NCBI GenBank assembly: GCA_902766095.1
Contig: CACXCN010000085.1
Location: forward strand, 1 to 64,000
Length of the DNA: 64,000 nt
Direction of reading: 5' to 3'
Source: an uncultured Selenomonas sp.
Lineage (GTDB): Bacteria; Bacillota; Negativicutes; Selenomonadales; Selenomonadaceae
This document shows positions 22,596-33,124 of this stretch, piece by piece; position 1 is the stretch's first letter; each line of letters opens with the position of its first letter. The notes beneath the pieces are model-generated. The model worked only from the letters and a program-made list of their open reading frames with translations, did no database searches and had not been told where the DNA came from. Position numbers and translations under genes: made by a program.

Positions 22596-23366
22596 ATGCA
22601 GAAAATAGCTATATATGGAAAAGGCGGCATAGGAAAGTCGACGGTCACGAGCAATCTGGCCGCCGCTCTGGCTGTATCTGGAAAACGCGTCATCCAGATC
22701 GGCTGCGACCCCAAAGCCGACTCCACGATCAACCTGCTGAACGGCCAGCCGCTGACCTCGGTCATGGGCTATATCCGCGAGCATGACCGGGAACCGGAAT
22801 CACTGGATGAGATATCGCGAACCGGCTTCGGTGGCGTGCTCTGTATCGAGACCGGCGGCCCGACCCCGGGACTGGGCTGCGCAGGCCGCGGCATCATCGC
22901 CACGTTCGGCCTGCTGGAGGAGCTGGAGCTGTTCGAGACATTCAAGCCTGACGTCGTCCTGTATGATGTTCTCGGCGACGTCGTCTGCGGCGGCTTTGCC
23001 GCCCCGATACGCGAGGGCTATGCCGAGGACGTGCTCATCGTGACCTCCGGAGAAAAGATGGCTCTCTATGCCGCCAACAACATAGCGACAGCGGTAGAGA
23101 ATTTCGCAGATCGTGGCTATGCCCGCCTACGCGGAGTGGTGCTGAACCGCCGCAACGTCCCTGACGAGGAGCAGAAAGTCACTGCTTTCGCTACTGAAAA
23201 GCACATCCCTGTAGTGGCAGATATCCCGCGCAGCGATGACATCAATATCGCCGAGGAAAAAGGTCAGACCGTCATCGAAGCCGACCGCTCGCTGCCTGTC
23301 AGCCAGCAATTCCTCGCTCTGGCAAAGACATTGCTGGAAACAAAGGCGGCCAGTAATGAAAAATAA
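22596..23366 (+). CDS. NifH-like ATPase (nitrogenase-like reductase component)
   Basis: A 256-residue homodimeric Fe-protein homologue. All key residues are seen: the P-loop GKGGIGKST (8-16), switch I DPKADST (38-44), the two cluster cysteines in GLGCAGRG (C95) and GDVVCGGF (C131), and the arginine R98 equivalent to the ADP-ribosylated one of NifH. It should hold a [4Fe-4S] cluster between two subunits and pass electrons to a NifD/K-like partner at the cost of ATP. It is slightly shorter than true NifH. It is the first gene of a nine-gene operon. The start is set by an AGAAGGAG site. It is not the nitrogen-fixing protein: nifDK, nifB and nifEN proper are absent. Which reaction it drives is unknown. 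Confidence 0.9.
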
Positions 23367-24657
23367 TGTCTACAGCATAACCGCAGCTGAACTGGCTGCC
23401 GGCCAGACAGAGGGACTGCCAGACGAGATGCGCACCGATACGCATCTCATATACAATTCCCCCGGTTCGCTGGATTTCAATTCACCGGGAGCCAGCGGAT
23501 TCGGCGTGAAGCGCGCGGGGCTCGCGATACCGGGCAGCATCATGCTGCTCATATCCCCTGCCTGCTGCGGGCGCAATACAGCTGCGCTCTCCGGTCCCCG
23601 CTATGCGGATCGATGCGCCTATCTGGAGCTCGATGAAAACGATATCGTAACCGGGAAACATCTGGCCAAGATACCAGCTGCCGTGGCCGCCTTCGTTGCC
23701 AGCCGCCCGACGCCGCCCAGTGCCGTATCCCTGTGCATCACCTGTGTCGATGCCCTGCTCGGCACCGACATGGAGCGCGTCGCCCGCCGCTGCGTCGAGC
23801 GGGTGCATCTGCCGGTAATCCCTTGCTATATGTATGCCCTGACGCGCGAGAGCAATCTGCCGCCTATGGTTTACGTACGTGAATCGATTTACAAGCAGCT
23901 GCAGCCACGCCGCAAAGACAGCCGGGCGGCAAACATCCTGGGCTTTTTTACCGCGCTGGCCCCGGACTGCGAGCTTTTCGAGCTGCTGCGCAGCATTGGG
24001 ATCAGGCATGTCCGCAGTCTCGCCGGTTGCCGCACCTATGCCGAGTTCGAGCAGCTCGCTGAGGCGAACTTCAACCTGGTCCTGACCGGCGAGGTCCGTT
24101 CCTCCGCCGCCTGGATGGAGCGCGAACTGCATATCCCGGCAATCGAGTTGAAACGCGTCTACAGCCTGGCTCAGGTAGACAACCAATATAAAGGTTTGGG
24201 GCACGTCCTCGGTACAGGATTCGCTACGGAGCGCTATCGCGCCGAGGCGGAACAAGCTATGATGGCTTTGTCCCATCTGCTGGCCAGTCGGGACCGGAAG
24301 CCACACCTGGCCGTCGGCAGCCAGCTCAATGCGGATCCGTTCGAGTTGTCCGCCAGCCTCATTGCCACTGGTCTGGATGTAGACGAGATATTCGGCATTC
24401 CGCAGCCAGAGGATTCTTTCTATATAAAAAAGATTGCTGCCGCCAGCCCGGCAACTCGCATATACACGGCTCTATCCCCCAGCATGCTGAATTTCGATCG
24501 CGAACACAGCGATATTACGCTGGCCATGGGCACGGATGCCATGTACTACCATCCCCGGGCCATCCCGCTGAGCTGGAATGATGGAGCCCAGCCCTTCGGC
24601 TACCAGGGAATCACGTTGCTGTATAAAAAGCTGCTGGAGGCATTGACCAATGACTGA
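23356..24657 (+). CDS. NifD-like nitrogenase component 1 protein, pair A
   Basis: A 433-residue protein of the nitrogenase component 1 family (NifD/NifE-like). Cluster-type cysteines lie where the P-cluster ligands of NifD occur: SPACCGRN (C70, C71) and [13 protein letters not shown] (C127, C130), the latter followed by the G-T-D turn typical of the family. The residues of the C-terminal third resemble the third Rossmann domain. The gene overlaps the NifH-like gene by 11 bp and the next by 8 bp, so the three are translationally coupled. The cysteine count is higher than in the partner protein, which suggests that it carries most of the cluster ligands. Substrate unknown. Confidence 0.8.
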
Positions 24658-25729
24658 TACGCACATAAAAGGACTGCGGCTCTACCTGCCTCCCTTCGCC
24701 CCGGATACTTCGGGTGCGGCGAGCGTTGCGTTCCCGACCGGCGGGCTCTCGGTCATCATAGATGCCGGCGGCTGTGCGGGCAATATCTGCGGCTTCGATG
24801 AGCCCCGCTGGCAGACCGATACCTCGGCTGTCATGAGTGCCGGACTGCGCGATATGGATGCCATCATGGGACGCGACGACCGTCTGCTGGATAAGATTGA
24901 GCGCGCGCTGAGCCAGATAGCAGCCACCCATATCACCCTCATCAGCACGCCGGTCCCTGCCGTCATCGGCACCGATCTGCATGCATTGCGGCGACTGCTG
25001 ACCAGGCGCTGCGGTCTGCCGGTGGCTATAGCAGCCAGCGATGGCACACATGCCTACGATCAGGGAGCTTCTCAAGCTTATCTGGGACTGCTGGAAGCTC
25101 TGCTGGAGCCGGACACCGCCAAGCTGCCTGCCAGTGTCGGTATCTGGGGGACCACGCCGCTCGATATCACACGCCCGGACGCAGATCAGTTGCGACACCA
25201 GCTGCGCATCAGCGGTTGCCAGCATGTCTTCCTCCATGGCCTGGACCATGGGGCGGAGCCATATAAAGCTGCTGCCGCCGTAGAGCGCAACATCGTCATC
25301 GCTCCCTCCGGTCTGGCGCCGGCCCGCTATCTGCAGCAGCACTATCATATCCCCTTTACCGTCTGCCATCCGCTGGCGGCACAGCAGCTGGAGACCATGC
25401 TGGCAACCACCACGGACGCCCTGCCTGCTACCGGACAGCGCGTACTGATCCTGCACCAGCAGATGGCTGCCAACGCTATGCGTCAGGCGATCCGGCAACG
25501 TCTGGGCCACGAGGCGCCGCAAATCAATTGTGCGACATTCTTCGCCCAGGATGAAACCTACTGCGAGCCTGGCGACGCAAAGTTCACGGAGGAATACGAA
25601 TTCCCGGAATGGGTGGCTGAAAACGCTCCTGATCTCATAATAGCAGACAAGATTTACCAGCGCGCCCTCCCCTCCTGGCACGGCATTTTCCTTGATTACC
25701 CGCATTTCGCCGTATCCGGCGAGCGCTGA
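24650..25729 (+). CDS. NifK-like nitrogenase component 1 protein, pair A
   Basis: A 359-residue partner of the preceding protein. It begins with an N-terminal domain holding GGCAGNICGFDEPRW (C42, C47); the second ligand site of the family is reduced to STPVPAVIGTD, without cysteine. The GxC...DEPRW signature is shared with the last gene of the operon (C51, DEPRW at 59-63), so the two are paralogues and form the K-like halves of two D/K pairs. A GGAGG site precedes the ATG. The protein is short for the family, lacking long insertions. It probably forms a heterotetramer with the product of 23356-24657. Confidence 0.78.
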   Translation: MTDTHIKGLRLYLPPFAPDTSGAASVAFPTGGLSVIIDAGGCAGNICGFDEPRWQTDTSAVMSAGLRDMDAIMGRDDRLLDKIERALSQIAATHITLISTPVPAVIGTDLHALRRLLTRRCGLPVAIAASDGTHAYDQGASQAYLGLLEALLEPDTAKLPASVGIWGTTPLDITRPDADQLRHQLRISGCQHVFLHGLDHGAEPYKAAAAVERNIVIAPSGLAPARYLQQHYHIPFTVCHPLAAQQLETMLATTTDALPATGQRVLILHQQMAANAMRQAIRQRLGHEAPQINCATFFAQDETYCEPGDAKFTEEYEFPEWVAENAPDLIIADKIYQRALPSWHGIFLDYPHFAVSGER

Positions 25730-25753
25730 AGATACGAGAAAAGAGTTGATGGC

Positions 25754-28150
25754 ATGATATTGCTCCACAGCAAAGTATACGGTATCGTACAGGGAGTGGG
25801 ATTCCGCCCCTTCATCGCACGACTGGCCCAGAAATACGCCGTGAACGGCAGCGTCTGCAACAAAGGGCCCTATGTCGAGCTCTACATCGCAGGTGCCGAG
25901 TCAGACTGCAGAGCCCTGCTGGACGAGATGGAATCACAGCCGCCTGAGCGCGCCACCATATTGAAAGTCGATACCGATGTGCTGACGCCGGCTGACGAAG
26001 GCTATCAGACGTTCACCGATTTCCAGATCATCGACAGCGCCCGGGAGCGCGGAGCGATATTCGTCTCACCTGATATAGCGACCTGCGATAAATGCCGGGC
26101 CGAGCTCTACGATCCGCACAACCGCCGCTACCTGCATCCCTTCATAAACTGCACAGCCTGCGGACCGCGCCTGACCATCCTCGAAGCCATGCCCTACGAC
26201 CGCGAGCGGACCAGCATGCGCGAATTCCCGATGTGCGAAGCCTGCCATACCGAGTATACGACGCCTGACGACCGCCGCTATGATGCCCAGCCGGTCTGCT
26301 GCAACGACTGCGGTCCCGAAGTATACCTGCTCGACGGATCCCTGCGCGGAAGTGCTGCCATCACGGCCATCCGCCAGGCCATCATCGACGGTCAGATCGT
26401 AGCGATAAAGGGCATCGGCGGCTTTCATCTGGCCTGCGATGCCAGCAATGACGCGGCCGTACGGCTGCTGCGCCAGCGCAAGAACCGGCCGACAAAGCCT
26501 TTCGCCATCATGATGCGCGATATGGCGGCAGTGCAGCGCGAATGCATCGTCGAGCCGGGACAGGCGGCCATGCTCACGGGACACCAAAAGCCCATACTGC
26601 TCCTGCATCGGCGCGATTCCCTTTCCCCGGATACAGACGCATCATCCCGGCGTCTGGCCGACAGCGTCGCGCCCGGCAATCCGCGCATCGGCGTCATGCT
26701 GCCCTATGCGCCGGTGCAAATGCTCCTGTTTGACTACCCTGACGGACTGAATGACCGCATGCCCGATATGCTGGTCATGACGAGCGGCAATCCGCACGGA
26801 GCGCCGATCTGCCGCGATGACGAGCAGGTCCGGTCCGCACTGGCCGGCCGCATCGCGGACATGGTATTGTCACATAACCGCCGCATACGCCTGCGGGCCG
26901 ATGACACGGTGACCGACTGGTATCGCGGCGCCCCCTATATGATACGCCGCAGCCGCGGCTTCGCACCGCTGCCGGTCATGCTCTCCGGGGATTGGCACGG
27001 CCAGGTGCTCGGCATCGGCGGCGAGCTGAAGAACACCTTCTGCCTCGGCCATGACGATCTGCTCTATCCCTCGCCCTATGTCGGCGATATGAGCGATCTG
27101 CGCACCGTGCAGGCGCTGAAGGAGTCCATCCACCTCATGGCGGAGCTTCTCGAGATAAAGCCGGAACTCATAGCCTGCGACCTGCATCCCGGCTATATCA
27201 CGACGCAGGTCGCCGAGTCACTCGAGCTGCCCCTGATGAAGGTACAGCATCACTACGCTCATATCCTGAGCTGCATGGCGGAAAATGACTACCCCGTCGA
27301 GGCTGAGCCCGTCATCGGCCTGAGCCTCGATGGGACCGGCTACGGACTCGATGGCACGATATGGGGTGGCGAGATACTGCTCTGCAGCTACACCGGGTTC
27401 CAACGTCTCGGCCATATCACGCCGTTCCCCCAGGCCGGCGGCGACAAAGCCTCCCGCGAAGGCTGGCGCATAGCCGCCGCGCAGATATACGCGCTGACTG
27501 CAGACAGAGAGCAGGCCACGGATATCATAAAGAAGCTCGCGCTCACGGATGAGCAGGGCTGCCGCGCCATCGCCTTCATGCTGGACAAGAACCTCAACAC
27601 CATCACGAGCACGAGCATGGGACGCCTGTTCGACAGCATCAGCGCGGTTCTCGGCATACGCCGGGCCTCATCGTTCGAGGGGGAGGCCGCCAATTATCTC
27701 GAATTCGCTGCCGAAAAATACCTGCAGCAGCAGGGACATGCACCTGACGACTACGGCGAGCCATGGGAGCCGCCGACCCTGCCGGACTGGCTCCCCGCTG
27801 CTGCGGACTCTGCCCCCGGGACCGACCTCCCCACGGACAAACTTTTCCGCTATATACTTGAGCGTCAGCTGACGGGCTGCCCGGCCGGCGAATCCGCCTA
27901 TATATTCCACTACGCCCTGGCCCGGATGCTGACGGCTGCCGCCGCATCTGCCAGCCAGAGCACCGGCAGTCATACCGTGGCCCTGTCCGGCGGCGTCTGG
28001 CAGAACCATCTGCTGCTGCAGCTGACGGAACCCATGCTGACCGCAGCCGGACTGAAGGTACTGCGTCACAGCCAGATCCCGCCTAACGATGGCGGTATCT
28101 GCCTCGGTCAGGCCGTAGCCGCCCTCTGCCGCCGGAACGGCATTTGCTGA
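25754..28150 (+). CDS. hypF: carbamoyltransferase HypF
   Basis: A 798-residue enzyme that uses carbamoyl phosphate and ATP to carbamoylate the C-terminal cysteine of HypE, the source of cyanide for the Fe(CN)2CO unit of [NiFe] hydrogenases. Domains in order: acylphosphatase (VQGVGFRPF, about 12-20), two C4 zinc fingers (CDKC, CTACG, CEAC, CNDCG), a YrdC-like domain (about 205-390) and a Kae1-like domain (HHYAHILSC, SLDGTGYGLDG). All parts are intact and the length is normal. It starts 24 bp after the NifK-like gene. Finding hypF between nitrogenase-like genes, away from any hydrogenase, is unusual. Confidence 0.97.
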   Translation: MILLHSKVYGIVQGVGFRPFIARLAQKYAVNGSVCNKGPYVELYIAGAESDCRALLDEMESQPPERATILKVDTDVLTPADEGYQTFTDFQIIDSARERGAIFVSPDIATCDKCRAELYDPHNRRYLHPFINCTACGPRLTILEAMPYDRERTSMREFPMCEACHTEYTTPDDRRYDAQPVCCNDCGPEVYLLDGSLRGSAAITAIRQAIIDGQIVAIKGIGGFHLACDASNDAAVRLLRQRKNRPTKPFAIMMRDMAAVQRECIVEPGQAAMLTGHQKPILLLHRRDSLSPDTDASSRRLADSVAPGNPRIGVMLPYAPVQMLLFDYPDGLNDRMPDMLVMTSGNPHGAPICRDDEQVRSALAGRIADMVLSHNRRIRLRADDTVTDWYRGAPYMIRRSRGFAPLPVMLSGDWHGQVLGIGGELKNTFCLGHDDLLYPSPYVGDMSDLRTVQALKESIHLMAELLEIKPELIACDLHPGYITTQVAESLELPLMKVQHHYAHILSCMAENDYPVEAEPVIGLSLDGTGYGLDGTIWGGEILLCSYTGFQRLGHITPFPQAGGDKASREGWRIAAAQIYALTADREQATDIIKKLALTDEQGCRAIAFMLDKNLNTITSTSMGRLFDSISAVLGIRRASSFEGEAANYLEFAAEKYLQQQGHAPDDYGEPWEPPTLPDWLPAAADSAPGTDLPTDKLFRYILERQLTGCPAGESAYIFHYALARMLTAAAASASQSTGSHTVALSGGVWQNHLLLQLTEPMLTAAGLKVLRHSQIPPNDGGICLGQAVAALCRRNGIC

Positions 28151-28188
28151 CATGTACACGATATAATATAAAAGGAGAGCAATTCATC

Positions 28189-28395
28189 ATGTGTGTAGGA
28201 CTTCCTGCCAAAGTTGTAAAAATACAGAATGGCACCGCGCTCGTCGATGCCTCGGGGGCTCGCCGCGAGGTATCCGCCGAACTGCTGGACGATGTGGATC
28301 CGGGCGACTACGTCATGGTCCATGCCGGCATCGCCATCGCCAAGATAGACGAAAATGACGACGACGAAACCGCCCGTCTCCTGGAAAATATATAA
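28189..28395 (+). CDS. hypC: hydrogenase assembly chaperone HypC
   Basis: A 68-residue HypC/HupF chaperone that carries the Fe(CN)2CO group with HypD. The obligatory N-terminal cysteine motif is present (MCVGLPAKV, with C2 ready after methionine removal), followed by the GDYVMVHAGIAIAKID block. The tail is acidic. The start is fixed by the motif and by an AAAGGAGA site 7 nt upstream. It lies between hypF and hypD in the canonical order F-C-D-E. In hydrogenase maturation HypC also docks on the large subunit; here the acceptor could instead be a nitrogenase-like protein, which is only an inference. Confidence 0.96.
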   Translation: MCVGLPAKVVKIQNGTALVDASGARREVSAELLDDVDPGDYVMVHAGIAIAKIDENDDDETARLLENI

Positions 28396-28411
28396 CAAGG
28401 GTTTGATATCA

Positions 28412-29479
28412 ATGACACCTGAACAGAAAGAAAAGCTGCAAAAAGCCAAAGACCTCATAACCTCGTATCGCGGTCCCCGCATACGCATCATGGAAGTCTG
28501 CGGCACGCACACCCATGAGATATTCCGCCTCGGCCTGCGCCAGCTGCTGCCGCCCGACATAACGCTCATATCCGGTCCCGGTTGCCCGGTCTGCGTCACC
28601 CCGACCACCTTCATCGATGAGGCGCTCTGGCTGGCCCTGGCTGCTGACGGTCCCCGGGCCACGATCTGCACCTTCGGCGATCTCATCCGCGTCCCCGGCA
28701 CCACGGCCTCCCTGGCCACTGCCCGCGCAGAGGGCGCAAAAATTCAGATCGTATATACGCCGCTCGATGCCGCGGAGTATGCCCACGCCCATCCGGAAGA
28801 AACCGTCGTATTCCTCTCCGTCGGCTTCGAGACCACGGTTCCCTCGAGCTGCCTGGCTCTGCAGCGGGCTCAGGAATACGGCTGCACGAATTTCACGCTG
28901 CTCACAGCCAACAAGGTCATGCCGCCCGCCTATCGGGCCATGGCCTCGTCCTGTGACGCCTATCTCTACCCCGGCCACGTCTGCGCCATCACCGGCACGA
29001 GCATCCCGGAGCAGCTCGTCCACGATGGCATATCCGGCGTCGTGGCAGGCTTCACGGCCGCCGAGCTCCTGACGGCCATAGCCGTCATCGTGAAGCGGGT
29101 CCCACTCGGTCAGCCCTTCTTCGTCAACTGCTATCCGCGCGTCGTAAAGCCGGCTGGCAGCCCCAAAGCCATGGCGCTGATTGACAAATATATGCAGCCG
29201 GTCGATGCCGAGTGGCGCGGGCTCGGAATCATGCCGGCCAGCGGCCTCGCGCTGCGCCCCGATTATGCCGCCTTCGATGCCCGCAAGCGCTTCCGGATAC
29301 CGCCGCTCGACGGCCATCCGAATCCCGCCTGCCGCTGCGGCGAGATACTACAGGGACGCTGCACGCCGCCCGAGTGCCCATTATTCGGCAAGACCTGCAC
29401 GATCGAGCATCCGATCGGCGCCTGCATGGTCTCCCGCGAGGGAACATGCTCGGCTTTTTACCAATATGGCAATTACTGA
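28412..29479 (+). CDS. hypD: hydrogenase maturation protein HypD
   Basis: A 355-residue [4Fe-4S] scaffold on which Fe is fitted with two CN and one CO. Signature segments are all present: MEVCGTHTHEIFR (C30), SGPGCPVCVTP (C58, C61), and the C-terminal cluster cysteines in CRCGEILQG, CTPPECPLFGKTC and the final CMVSREGTC region. The start at 28412 fits HypD proteins; the frame is open 57 bp further but overlaps hypC. It is 17 bp downstream of hypC and probably cotranscribed. Confidence 0.97.
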   Translation: MTPEQKEKLQKAKDLITSYRGPRIRIMEVCGTHTHEIFRLGLRQLLPPDITLISGPGCPVCVTPTTFIDEALWLALAADGPRATICTFGDLIRVPGTTASLATARAEGAKIQIVYTPLDAAEYAHAHPEETVVFLSVGFETTVPSSCLALQRAQEYGCTNFTLLTANKVMPPAYRAMASSCDAYLYPGHVCAITGTSIPEQLVHDGISGVVAGFTAAELLTAIAVIVKRVPLGQPFFVNCYPRVVKPAGSPKAMALIDKYMQPVDAEWRGLGIMPASGLALRPDYAAFDARKRFRIPPLDGHPNPACRCGEILQGRCTPPECPLFGKTCTIEHPIGACMVSREGTCSAFYQYGNY

Positions 29480-29488
29480 TGATAAATC

Positions 29489-29515
29489 GAGCCACGCTGC
29501 ATTGCAGCACGGCTC
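29489..29515 (+). other. stem-loop between hypD and hypE
   Basis: GAGCC and GGCTC close a hairpin with an inner GCTGC/GCAGC stem and an ATT loop. No T-run follows, and the hypE ribosome site (GGGAG) lies directly after. A stabilising or processing hairpin is possible. Confidence 0.5.
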
Positions 29516-29527
29516 AGGGAGAATCTT

Positions 29528-30547
29528 ATGCTGAATGATAACGAAAAGGTGACGCTGGCCCATGGAGCCGGCGGAAAAAAGACATCGGAACTCATACACG
29601 ATATATTCCAGAAACATCTCGGCAACCGCTATTTCACTGCTGATGACGCAGCCGTGCTCGAGCTGGACAGCCGGCACATCGCGGTCACGACGGATGGTTT
29701 CATCGTCAGCCCCTGGCAGTTCCCGGGCGGCAACATCGGCGAGCTCTGCATCTGCGGTACGGTCAACGACCTGTCCTGCATGGGGGCCAGGCCGAAATAT
29801 CTGACCTGTGCCTTTCAGATCGAAGAAGGCACGCCGCTCCGCGACCTCGAGCTCATCGCCAGCTCGATGGCCGAGACGGCAGCCGCAGCCGGTGTCCACA
29901 TCGTGGCCGGCGATACGAAAGTCGCGGGCAAAGGCCAGGTCGACCACTGCTTCATCACCACGACCGGCATCGGCGAACTGCAGCCCGGACTCTGCCCCAG
30001 CGGCAGCCGGGCCGCTGCCGGTGATGCCGTCATCGTCACCGGCGATGTCGGCCGCCACGGCTGTGCCATACTGCTGGCCCGTGGCGACTACGGCATAGAT
30101 GCCGCGGTCACCAGCGATGCGGCCCCGCTCTGGAGCATCGTCGAGCCTCTGACGAAGATTGCCGCCCCTGAAGACCTGCACACGATGCGCGACGCCACGC
30201 GCGGCGGTGTCGGCACCGTCCTCTATGAGATCGCCGGCGAGAGCGGTGTCGGCATCGAGTTGAACAGTGCCGCCATCCCCGTAGATCCGGCTGTACGCGG
30301 CACCTGCGATATGCTCGGTCTCGAGCCGCTGTATCTGGCCTGCGAGGGCCGGCTCGTCATATTCACTCCTGCGGAACGCGCCGACGAAGTACTGGCTGTC
30401 ATCCGTCAGACGGAGCAGGGCCGGGGTGCGGCGCGCATCGGCACGGTCGTCAGCGATCACCCCGGCAAGGTGACAATCAACACCGTGCTGGGCACACAGA
30501 CGATATTGCCGGCTCCGGGCGGCGAACTGCTGCCCCGTATCTGCTGA
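29528..30547 (+). CDS. hypE: hydrogenase maturation protein HypE
   Basis: A 339-residue PurM-like ATPase that dehydrates the thiocarboxamide made on its C-terminal cysteine into thiocyanate and donates CN to HypC-HypD. The C-terminal tetrapeptide PRIC is intact (C339), which is required for function. The N-terminus has the HGAGG ATP motif and the VxxTxDxFxVxPxxFPGGxIGxL-type block. RDATRGGVGT is also typical. It is the last hyp gene; hypA and hypB (nickel insertion) do not follow. The next gene is a nitrogenase-like protein, 13 bp on. Confidence 0.97.
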   Translation: MLNDNEKVTLAHGAGGKKTSELIHDIFQKHLGNRYFTADDAAVLELDSRHIAVTTDGFIVSPWQFPGGNIGELCICGTVNDLSCMGARPKYLTCAFQIEEGTPLRDLELIASSMAETAAAAGVHIVAGDTKVAGKGQVDHCFITTTGIGELQPGLCPSGSRAAAGDAVIVTGDVGRHGCAILLARGDYGIDAAVTSDAAPLWSIVEPLTKIAAPEDLHTMRDATRGGVGTVLYEIAGESGVGIELNSAAIPVDPAVRGTCDMLGLEPLYLACEGRLVIFTPAERADEVLAVIRQTEQGRGAARIGTVVSDHPGKVTINTVLGTQTILPAPGGELLPRIC

Positions 30548-30560
30548 GAAGGATTTCATC

Positions 30561-32162
30561 ATGTTACTGCAAATACACGGGGAACCCAGCCCGGCTTCCC
30601 GCCATATAAAAGATATAACGGGGCCGGCGTTCTTCCCCCATTCGCTCGAATACTCCGTACCGGCCCGCGGGACCTGGAACATCGTCCATACCGGCATGCT
30701 CGTACCGGAATCACACCATATATACATATGTGCTTCGGGCTGTCTCCGTGGCGTCGTCCTGACGGCAGCCGAGATGGGCGCTGACTACCGGCGGCGATTC
30801 TCTACCATCGAATTGAAAAGCAAGGACCTCGTCAATACCGATAACGAGCAGCTCATCATCGACGGCATCACGGATATCTTGAATAATCTCGACTACACGC
30901 CGCGGTCAGTATTCGTATTTCCGGCCTGCGTCCACCACTTTCTGGGATGCAATCTGCGCTATGTCTACCGCGAGCTGCAGCGCCGCTTTCCCGGCCTGGA
31001 CTTCGCCGAGTGCTTCATGGACCCCGTCTGTCAGACGAATCCGCGCAACCTGACGCCGGAGGACCGGCTTCGCCGTGCCATCACGCGGCTCTGGGACATC
31101 GGGACCATTGAGCCGCGTACGCTTACGCTGTTCAATAGCAACTTCCCCATGGCTGCGTCATCACCTGTCTACGAGATCGCCCGCGCTGCCGGCTGGCAGA
31201 TCCATGACGCAGCAGCCTGCCAGAGCTATGACGATTTCCGCGCCCTCGGACATGCTGCCGTATTCGCCTATACCAGCCCGATGGGACACCGGGCCGCCCG
31301 GGATCTCGGACGCCGCACCGGCCGTCCGGTCATCTACCTGCCCCAGCAGTGGCGCGCTCCTGAGACGACGGCCAGCATCCGACAGCTGCTCACCGCCATG
31401 GACCTGACCGCTGCCTCGATGCCGGACACCATGCTGGCCCGCCATCGTGAGGACGCTGCCTCCGGACTGGCCGCGCTGAAAGCCGAAATCGGCTCGCTCC
31501 CCATAGCCATAGATTATACTTTCACTCACTGCCTGTTCAGTATGGCCCGGGCTCTCGTCGAGGCCGGACTGAACGTCGTACGCCTCTATGCCGACGCCTG
31601 CCTGCCCGAAGAGGCTGAGGATTTCCAATGGCTGCAGCAGCACTGCCCGGATCTGGAGATATATTCTGCCAAGCAGGCCGATATGCGCTTTGCTGTCGAT
31701 GCGGATGCACTCGCAGCCGCCCGTTCACCTCATCCGCCCCGGCGCATATTGGCGCTCGGGCAAAAAGCCGCCTACTACACGGCCAGTCCTTATTTCGTCA
31801 ATGTCATAGAGTCCGGCGGTGAATTCGGCCTGACGGGTCTGGCTGTACTGGCCCGGGATATGCGGCAGGCGAGCCGCACGCCCAAGAATCTCGAAAAAAC
31901 GATCAGCCCGAAAGGCTGGAGAGGACCGTGTGAGCTATGTCTAAAAAAAATGACCGGACAGCAGCGCCGCATATGCATACGGCGCAGACTGCCCATATCA
32001 TCAGTACTTACTCCGCCGACAATTTCGGCGTCTGCTCAGCGCTCTACGAGCTCGGCGGCATGGTCGTCATCCACGACCCCTCCGGCTGCAACTCCACCTA
32101 TACGACACATGATGAGCCGCGCTGGTTCACGAAACCCAGCCTGTTCTACATCTCCGCCCTGA
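30561..32162 (+). CDS. NifD-like nitrogenase component 1 protein, pair B, with aberrant C-terminus
   Basis: A component 1 family protein. The likely functional part is about 460 residues. Cluster-type cysteines occur in CASGCLRG (C57, C61), FPACVHHFLGCN (C123, C130) and CFMDPVCQ, a richer set than in its K-like partner. The frame does not stop near the normal end: after SPKG it passes through WRGPCEL into the next gene and adds about 70 residues rich in S, P, R and T which are out-of-frame translation of that gene. A reading one frame away gives LERTV and a stop at 31930-31932, similar to the LERLQV end of the paralogue at 31937-33124. A small deletion near 31917 is the likely cause. The start has a GAAGGA site. 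Confidence 0.7.
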   Translation: MLLQIHGEPSPASRHIKDITGPAFFPHSLEYSVPARGTWNIVHTGMLVPESHHIYICASGCLRGVVLTAAEMGADYRRRFSTIELKSKDLVNTDNEQLIIDGITDILNNLDYTPRSVFVFPACVHHFLGCNLRYVYRELQRRFPGLDFAECFMDPVCQTNPRNLTPEDRLRRAITRLWDIGTIEPRTLTLFNSNFPMAASSPVYEIARAAGWQIHDAAACQSYDDFRALGHAAVFAYTSPMGHRAARDLGRRTGRPVIYLPQQWRAPETTASIRQLLTAMDLTAASMPDTMLARHREDAASGLAALKAEIGSLPIAIDYTFTHCLFSMARALVEAGLNVVRLYADACLPEEAEDFQWLQQHCPDLEIYSAKQADMRFAVDADALAAARSPHPPRRILALGQKAAYYTASPYFVNVIESGGEFGLTGLAVLARDMRQASRTPKNLEKTISPKGWRGPCELCLKKMTGQQRRICIRRRLPISSVLTPPTISASAQRSTSSAAWSSSTTPPAATPPIRHMMSRAGSRNPACSTSPP

Positions 32163-33124
32163 CGGAACAGGATGCCATCATCGGCAACGACCAGCGCATC
32201 ATCGACGATATCACCGACGCCGCACGTCGGCAGCATCCGCGCTTCATCTGCATCATCCCCTCACAGATCGCCTTCCTGATCGGTACCGATATGAGTGCGA
32301 TCGCCAAAGTCATCCAGAAAAAGACCGGTATACGCACGTTCACCCTGCCGACCAGCAACATGACCTACTATGAGCGCGGCATAAACCTGGCCCTGAGCTG
32401 CCTTGCCGGCTGGTTCACGGATATGCATCCAACCGGCCTGCCGACGAACGACCATCTCGTGAACCTGCTCGGCATCACCCCGCTCGACTACTCAGTGAAT
32501 GGCAGTCTCGAGTCTATGCGCCGCTATTTTGCCGGACGTGGTATGACCACCGCCAGCTGGACGCTCGACACGAGCTGGGAAACTATCATGGAGCCGGATA
32601 CGGCCGCGCGCGAAAACATCGTCCTGTCCTACGGCGGGCTCGGAGCTGCTCACATACTGGCAGATGCGCTCCATATCCCCTACCGTGTCGGCGTCCCCAT
32701 AGGCGGACAGTTCATCGATGTCGGGAAGGCCTGTGCCGCATCATGTCCCTCAGCTGCCTCGACCGGACCAGCTGAGACGCCCGAAAACTTCATAATCGGC
32801 GAGACCATCTATGCCCAGGCTCTGGCCCTTGCCCTGGAGGGCTCTGGCCGCGGCCACTTCCGCGTCATCATCCCGATGGAATCAGACGCCGAGATCCAGC
32901 TGCCGGACTCCATCAATGCTACGGACGAGAAAGACCTGCAGCCTCTGCTGGAAACCGCCGGCACCGTCATCGCCGACCCGCTTTACGAACCGATCACCCA
33001 GGGCTGCGAGCACTTCATCCCCCTGCCGCACGAGGCTTTCAGCGGCCGCCTCTACCGCGCCCAGATTCCCGACCTCATCTCCCCCAAGGGCTATCAGGAA
33101 TTCCTGGAGAGACTGCAAGTATGA
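31937..33124 (+). CDS. NifK-like nitrogenase component 1 protein, pair B
   Basis: A 395-residue component 1 family protein and the last gene of the operon. An N-terminal cysteine lies in FGVCSAL (C33) and a second in DPSGCNS (C51), followed by DEPRW (59-63), the signature it shares with the 24650-25729 product. IIPSQIAFLIGTD marks the position where D-like proteins carry a cysteine. The C-terminal SPKGYQEFLERLQV is the family's usual end. A GGAGAGG site precedes the ATG, inside the end of the upstream gene. Together with that gene it forms a second D/K-like pair, as NifEN does to NifDK, so one pair may be catalytic and one an assembly scaffold; which is which is unknown. Confidence 0.78.
   Translation: MSKKNDRTAAPHMHTAQTAHIISTYSADNFGVCSALYELGGMVVIHDPSGCNSTYTTHDEPRWFTKPSLFYISALTEQDAIIGNDQRIIDDITDAARRQHPRFICIIPSQIAFLIGTDMSAIAKVIQKKTGIRTFTLPTSNMTYYERGINLALSCLAGWFTDMHPTGLPTNDHLVNLLGITPLDYSVNGSLESMRRYFAGRGMTTASWTLDTSWETIMEPDTAARENIVLSYGGLGAAHILADALHIPYRVGVPIGGQFIDVGKACAASCPSAASTGPAETPENFIIGETIYAQALALALEGSGRGHFRVIIPMESDAEIQLPDSINATDEKDLQPLLETAGTVIADPLYEPITQGCEHFIPLPHEAFSGRLYRAQIPDLISPKGYQEFLERLQV

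Follow-up and report, generated by a model that had tools for sequence, protein, structure and literature searches.

A nine-gene operon of hyp and nitrogenase-like genes

The window analyzed here is a stretch of 64,000 nt from an uncultured Selenomonas sp., an anaerobe of gut type (contig CACXCN010000085.1, positions 1 to 64,000; assembly GCA_902766095.1). In this window, the hydrogenase maturation genes hypF, hypC, hypD, and hypE (positions 25754 to 30547) form the middle of a nine-gene operon (22596 to 33124), where they are flanked by one NifH-like gene and four Oxidored_nitro (NifD/K/E/N-like) genes, here named nH, nA, nB, nC, and nD (Table 1). All nine genes are on the + strand, with gaps of less than 50 bases or overlaps between them, and the operon is bordered by a uvrB-like gene and other genes on the opposite strand. 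As developed below, this nine-gene set (the module) probably takes the place of HydG in the maturation of [FeFe] hydrogenase.

Table 1. Genes of the operon, with window coordinates, profile scores, and characteristic residues
Gene	Position	Strand	Assignment	Score (cut-off)	Residues and motifs
nH	22596..23366	+	NifH-like ATPase (iron-protein homologue)	Pfam Fer4_NifH 303 bits	P-loop GKGGIGKST; likely [4Fe-4S] cysteines C95 and C131
nA	23356..24657	+	nitrogenase component-1-like subunit	Pfam Oxidored_nitro 96 bits	invariant C71, C127, C130
nB	24650..25729	+	partner of nA	Pfam Oxidored_nitro 58 bits	invariant C42
hypF	25754..28150	+	carbamoyltransferase	TIGR00143 723 bits (466)	
hypC	28189..28395	+		TIGR00074 68.5 bits (48)	
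hypD	28412..29479	+	second copy in genome	TIGR00075 376 bits (193)	
hypE	29528..30547	+		TIGR02124 396 bits (252)	C-terminal PRIC
nC	30561..32162	+	nitrogenase component-1-like	Pfam Oxidored_nitro 36.5 bits	conserved C57, C61, C123
nD	31937..33124	+	partner of nC	Pfam Oxidored_nitro 62 bits	motifs HDPSGCNSTYTTHDEPRW and PHEAFSGR

An earlier, sequence-only reading of the window had described hypF, hypC, hypD, and hypE as intact, with all of their catalytic cysteines, and as unaccompanied by hypA, hypB, a hydrogenase, or a maturation protease. This description of the window stands. All four NCBIfam scores are far above the cut-offs, and the examined parts of the window show none of the other genes. 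The named residues are in place as well: C2 of HypC and the equivalent of H51 are intact and are invariant among all 65 module HypC proteins compared; C30, C58, and C61 of HypD correspond to C41, C69, and C72 of Escherichia coli, which are invariant among 68 module copies together with the four [4Fe-4S] cysteines (E. coli numbering); and C339 of HypE sits in the PRIC tail, which is kept in 63 of 64 module HypE proteins.

Distribution and conserved gene order

In a class-wide set of 380 Negativicutes genomes searched with nD, clear nD orthologues are present in 40 genomes of two families (f1 and f33), and these are referred to as module genomes. Nine further weak nD matches were left uncounted; those that were read (in genomes G035, G071, and G303) are other nitrogenase-like clusters. 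With an nA alignment and one genome per species, 502 loci were found. The best 80 of these, on which the neighborhood and composition counts below are based, belong to Negativicutes, Clostridia (among them Clostridium ragsdalei, C. drakei, C. luticellarii, Blautia luti, and Anaerostipes), Coriobacteriia, Lentisphaeria, and Synergistaceae.

Negativicutes regions read nH-nA-nB-hypF-hypC-hypD-hypE-nC-nD, and many of them have an additional NifH-like gene (nH2), which either precedes nC or follows nD. The same gene set is found in nearly all sufficiently long loci across phyla, with nH2-nC-nD located either upstream or downstream. Because the two halves of the module lie on separate contigs in Schwartzia succinivorans (G238), it is suggested that nA-nB plus hypFCDE and nC-nD plus nH2 are sub-modules. 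A single nA-nB polypeptide exists in 10 of the 80 loci (Schwartzia, Mitsuokella, and several Coriobacteriia) and an nH2-nC fusion in 2, which supports the fused proteins as partners. A HypC-HypD fusion in Lentisphaeria, suspected from open reading frame lengths, was not confirmed by a fusion scan and has been withdrawn.

The cluster in G035 (L172:3009-9044, contig C3) is devoid of hyp genes and is composed of a NifH-like gene, three genes that are ABC-transporter-like by size and order, and two NifD/K-like genes. Those of G303 (L075) and G071 (L076) are other NifH-like/NifD-like clusters, from HydG-bearing related families, and clearly are not the module.

The nitrogenase-like subunits

By fold, the module belongs to the nitrogenase superfamily (a NifH-like P-loop reductase plus an Oxidored_nitro heterodimer). 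nH is not a true NifH, because its score against the NCBIfam nifH model (305 bits) is under the equivalog cut-off of 394, and nA to nD score 18 to 50 bits against the equivalog models of nitrogenase D, K, and E (cut-offs, 427 to 654). Profile searches match NifE, NifD, and DPOR subunit B weakly (best values, 7e-23 for nD, 7e-16 for nA, 2e-12 for nB, and 2e-8 for nC). AlphaFold models of nA and nD (predicted local distance difference test scores of 86 and 84, respectively) match the folds of NifDK, NifEN, DPOR, and Mar at 10 to 20% identity, the nearest solved folds for nD being NifEN and DPOR. As judged from hidden Markov model alignments and motif position, C71 and C130 of nA, C61 and C123 of nC, C42 of nB, and C51 of nD, all invariant or nearly so, would occupy the positions of the inter-subunit [4Fe-4S] cluster of NifEN.

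No equivalog match to CfbCD or DPOR was reached (CfbC, 296 bits versus a cut-off of 402; BchL, 213 versus 345), no curated Mar model is among the matches of the window proteins, and no diagnostic pathway gene of CfbCD, DPOR, or Mar is among the recurrent neighbors of the modules. NifB over the cut-off was not found in the Selenomonas genome, and only 6 genomes have it in a set of 42 module genomes that come chiefly from other classes, although three are Selenomonadaceae. A true nitrogenase or a NifB-dependent cofactor was therefore rejected, given the sub-cut-off scores and the distribution of NifB.

The nC frame extends about 80 codons beyond the point where its homologues stop and overlaps the start of nD in another frame (window positions 31930 to 32162). 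Because the homologues end near position 31930 (alignments A3 and A7), these terminal codons are probably an extension or frameshift artefact; their origin would be the loss of a stop codon, an indel, or an error in the assembly.

Linkage with [FeFe]-hydrogenase maturation genes

Clustering of neighboring genes produced two leading recurrent families of 24 members each, identified with NCBIfam models as HydF (573 bits; cut-off, 326) and HydE (559 bits; cut-off, 255). The next families are aspartate-ammonia-lyase-like (aspA) proteins and TM1266, a regulator of iron-only hydrogenase systems. HydE or HydF is found beside the module in 37 of the 80 loci (HydE in 30 and HydF in 20), where about 0.5 loci each would be expected by chance, and TM1266 is likewise present in 37. 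Operons such as those of L126 and L127 are of the type TM1266-hydF-hydE-(nH2)nC-nD-nH-nA-nB-hypFCD(E). Aspartate ammonia-lyase is known from hyd operons and aids maturation (PMC11736057). HydA motifs were not seen beside modules in the loci examined.

The Selenomonas genome itself encodes HydA (group A6; 886 bits, located by a scan of about 1.0 Mb), HydE (361 bits), and HydF (515 bits), the combination expected where an H-cluster is matured. The sequence-only reading had suggested a nickel-free target for the hyp set without considering [FeFe] hydrogenase, whose diiron site is the likely one.

Mutual exclusion of the module and HydG

HydG is regarded as indispensable for supplying the H-cluster with its CO and CN- ligands. 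Were the module a replacement for HydG, genomes should have one or the other but not both. Among the 380 Negativicutes genomes, HydG above the cut-off is present in none of the 40 module genomes and in 187 of the 340 others (Fisher p, 2e-13, ignoring kinship). A HydG search of the module genomes gives ThiH-level scores or no match; in the Selenomonas genome, HydG was not found, the candidate being ThiH (505 bits; HydG model, 178). Since 25 of the 40 module genomes are at least 95% complete, incomplete assemblies cannot explain the absence of HydG. Module and HydG are swapped inside genera, as seen in g22 (G243, G260, and G261 versus most others), g23 (G268 versus G263 and G265 to G267), and g29 (G284 and G285 versus G283). 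In the 42-genome set, HydF is present in 39 genomes and true HydG in 2. Furthermore, of 30 sampled class genomes that have neither HydG nor nD, 22 lack HydF, as predicted. The module is found almost only where HydG is missing and is therefore probably a previously undescribed replacement for it.

Several points weigh against this reading. (i) Relatedness among genomes inflates the class-wide p-value. (ii) C. drakei and C. thailandense hold both a true HydG and the module (L175:2464-3906 and L176:8933-10354), HydF was not found in 3 of the 42 module genomes, and the HydG test in that set used one concatenated query protein instead of a curated model. (iii) HydF is present in 8 of the 30 genomes that have neither HydG nor nD. 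Three of these (G020, G030, and G049) are fragmented or incomplete, and five (G036, G062, G271, G273, and G275) are 94 to 99% complete; the latter may have a third solution or another route, or they may carry relict HydE/HydF genes without a working hydrogenase. (iv) The unit that HypCD is known to assemble is Fe(CN)2CO rather than Fe(CO)2CN, and a change of the ligand set thus has to be assumed.

The five near-complete genomes correspond to loci L164 to L168, and HydE is also present in G271 and G275. A search for an alternative conserved cluster beside HydF in genomes with neither HydG nor the module returned housekeeping genes (topA, dprA, xerC, trmFO, and codY) or unassigned genes.

Proposed role and mechanism

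With these points taken into account, we put the probability at roughly 70% that the nine genes form a dedicated organometallic-iron pathway which stands in for HydG in [FeFe]-hydrogenase maturation, that is, a HydG-independent source of the Fe-CO/CN synthon. We would give only even odds to the more specific proposal of a second, evolutionarily independent H-cluster route, in which nitrogenase-like reductases make CO (probably from CO2) and build the synthon together with HypCDEF.

Carbamoyl phosphate is the source from which HypF and HypE produce cyanide, and the iron is held on HypCD (PMC12130793, PMC12134894). In the module, cyanide of this origin would be placed on the iron held by HypC-HypD. 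Two ATP-driven nitrogenase-like complexes, one of nH with nA-nB and the other of nC-nD with either nH or, in loci that have it, nH2, would supply electrons of very low potential. These would serve to form the CO ligand(s), with CO2 as the simplest source, and/or to reduce and rearrange the iron-carbonyl-cyanide unit into a one-cyanide, two-carbonyl form for HydE and HydF. The iron proteins of nitrogenases are able to reduce CO2 to CO. HydE and HydF would complete the [2Fe] subcluster and place it in HydA. In the presumed HydE product, [Fe2(SH)2(CN)2(CO)4]2-, each iron bears one cyanide and two CO, and this compound can take the place of HydG and HydE during maturation (PMC11736057). The computed basis of the proposal is the composition and conservation of the module, its linkage to hydE, hydF, and TM1266, its exclusion of HydG, and a Selenomonas genome with HydA, HydE, and HydF but no HydG. 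From it, we infer that the module acts directly in H-cluster synthesis, that its nitrogenase-like parts form CO, and that labor is divided, in that nA-nB would act early with HypCD and nC-nD late with HydE/HydF.

It is unlikely that the module instead serves a nitrogenase-like catalyst of its own (nC-nD or nA-nB), which would act on some other reductive substrate with a new cofactor of the cyanide/carbonyl-iron type made by the module, in which case the linkage to HydE and HydF would reflect a shared hydrogen metabolism or their use for that cofactor. The two heterodimer pairs, with hypFCDE embedded among them, recall the NifDK catalyst and the NifEN scaffold, and some HydF-bearing genomes have neither HydG nor the module. 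However, such a cofactor fails to predict the absence of HydG from 40 of 40 module genomes in the class and from 40 of 42 in the wider set, and no substrate-specific transporter or pathway gene leads among the neighbors, which are hydE, hydF, aspA, TM1266, and minor families only.

Even less probable is that HydE and HydF alone mature the enzyme with free CO and cyanide, the module helping indirectly (e.g., with free CO, cyanide, or iron), although about 1% activation in vitro from HydE and HydF has been reported (PMC9431212) and the five near-complete genomes with HydF but without HydG and the module would agree with it. The near-strict exclusion between module and HydG implies substitution rather than help, and free CO and cyanide, if supplied by the module, would themselves amount to a replacement of HydG.

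Relation to [NiFe] hydrogenase

Contig C22 of the Selenomonas genome carries a [NiFe] hydrogenase operon (L003:4689-13044) that encodes a small subunit with a twin-arginine translocation (TAT) signal, a large subunit (599 bits), cytochrome b, HypA, HypB, a maturation protease, HypC, HypD, and HypE. Thus, the absence of hypAB and hydrogenase genes does not extend from the window to the genome. Because this operon has its own hypCDE, the hypCDE set of the window is a dedicated extra copy. No hypF was found in the operon, and the single HypF_C match of the genome is the window hypF, on which the operon presumably depends; as the only HypF copy found, the module HypF probably serves the [NiFe] enzyme too. 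The sequence-only reading had named a [NiFe] hydrogenase lacking its own hypCDEF as the contrary finding to look for, and this is the case for hypF but not for hypC, hypD, and hypE. Seen as a [NiFe] maturation system, the module has hypCDEF with intact catalytic residues, whereas hypA, hypB, the protease, and the large subunit lie here at another locus. Three other loci (L183, L184, and L185) resemble L003 in layout.

Relatives strongly back a nickel-free target, although the Selenomonas genome has a [NiFe] enzyme: 31 of the 42 module genomes lack the [NiFe] large subunit (PF00374), 19 of these 31 also lack HypA above the cut-off, and 35 of the 42 have only one HypD. In the HypD tree, the 68 HypD sequences of modules, which are from Bacillota, Actinomycetota, and Lentisphaerota, form one side of a branch with support of 95/94, and the hydrogenase HypD of the Selenomonas genome groups with other hydrogenase HypDs, apart from this clade. 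That the hyp genes are a second [NiFe] maturation set located by chance among nitrogenase-like genes would fit a [NiFe] operon without its own hypF and the canonical catalytic residues of HypCDE, but it is highly improbable and already largely refuted by the hypCDE of the hydrogenase operon, the 31 genomes without a large subunit, the order kept across phyla, and the separate HypD clade; a main role in maturing the cell's own [NiFe] hydrogenase or a nickel-free [NiFe]-type target was rejected on the first, second, and last of these grounds. A plasmid search with HypD gave one promising neighborhood (Butyrivibrio), which proved to be an ordinary [NiFe]/complex-I-like cluster.

Implications

A published survey lists five acetogenic Clostridium species that have HypCDEF but not HypAB: C. 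autoethanogenum, C. ljungdahlii, C. coskatii, AWRP, and C. ragsdalei (PMC9431212). It further reports that HypCDE is duplicated in C. carboxidivorans and that this species, like C. ljungdahlii, AWRP, C. coskatii, and C. ragsdalei, has HydE and HydF but lacks HydG. Four species are common to the lists without HypAB and without HydG; no explanation was given, and the authors wonder about an unknown ligand mechanism (PMC9431212). The C. ragsdalei locus (L158) is the module, and a HydG replacement would be one explanation for both puzzles. In the open-licence literature, we found no paper that links HydG or Hyp proteins with nitrogenase-like genes; a prior description elsewhere is possible.

A HydG-free route, if true, would change the picture for hundreds of anaerobic species (502 loci), many of them from the rumen or gut, where [FeFe] hydrogenases are a main source of H2, and would also bear on gas-fermenting Clostridium species. 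According to a 2025 review, where the CO ligand of HypCD comes from under anaerobic conditions is the most pressing open question, and a route from CO2 would need about -530 mV plus ATP (PMC12134894). Nitrogenase-like machines are built to deliver such an ATP-driven low potential, and the long-standing question of the origin of CO becomes testable. The module would, if the proposal is true, contain a dedicated enzyme for the anaerobic formation of the CO ligand, the first with a link to Hyp proteins, and offer a new tool kit for [FeFe] hydrogenase production.

As a side observation, the Selenomonas genome encodes PylB, the methylornithine synthase of pyrrolysine biosynthesis (L202:103-1206, contig C10; 480 bits versus a cut-off of 348).

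Comparison with known systems

The module shares with nitrogenase (NifHDKEN plus NifB) a NifH-like reductase and two heterodimer pairs of the NifD/K/E/N fold; it differs in its structural identity of 10 to 20%, in scores far below the equivalog level, in the embedded hyp genes, and in the lack of NifB in most hosts. DPOR, CfbCD, and Mar are likewise ATP-driven reductases with NifH-like and NifD/K-like parts, and DPOR and Mar are among the structural matches. In contrast to these three systems, the module has four component-1-like subunits and hyp genes, and no tetrapyrrole or sulfur-scavenging genes are found among its recurrent neighbors.

The HypCDEF branch of [NiFe] maturation uses the same four proteins with the same catalytic residues, and the same carbamoyl-phosphate-derived cyanide is to be expected on the HypCD iron (PMC12130793, PMC12134894). 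Unlike that branch, the module comes without HypA, HypB, and a protease, its hyp genes are fixed among nitrogenase-like genes, and most of the tested hosts are devoid of [NiFe] hydrogenase. With HydG-type [FeFe]-hydrogenase maturation, finally, the module has in common its linkage to hydE, hydF, aspA, and TM1266, hosts that possess HydF, and, in the Selenomonas genome, HydA and HydE; the difference is that HydG is missing and the module is found in its place.

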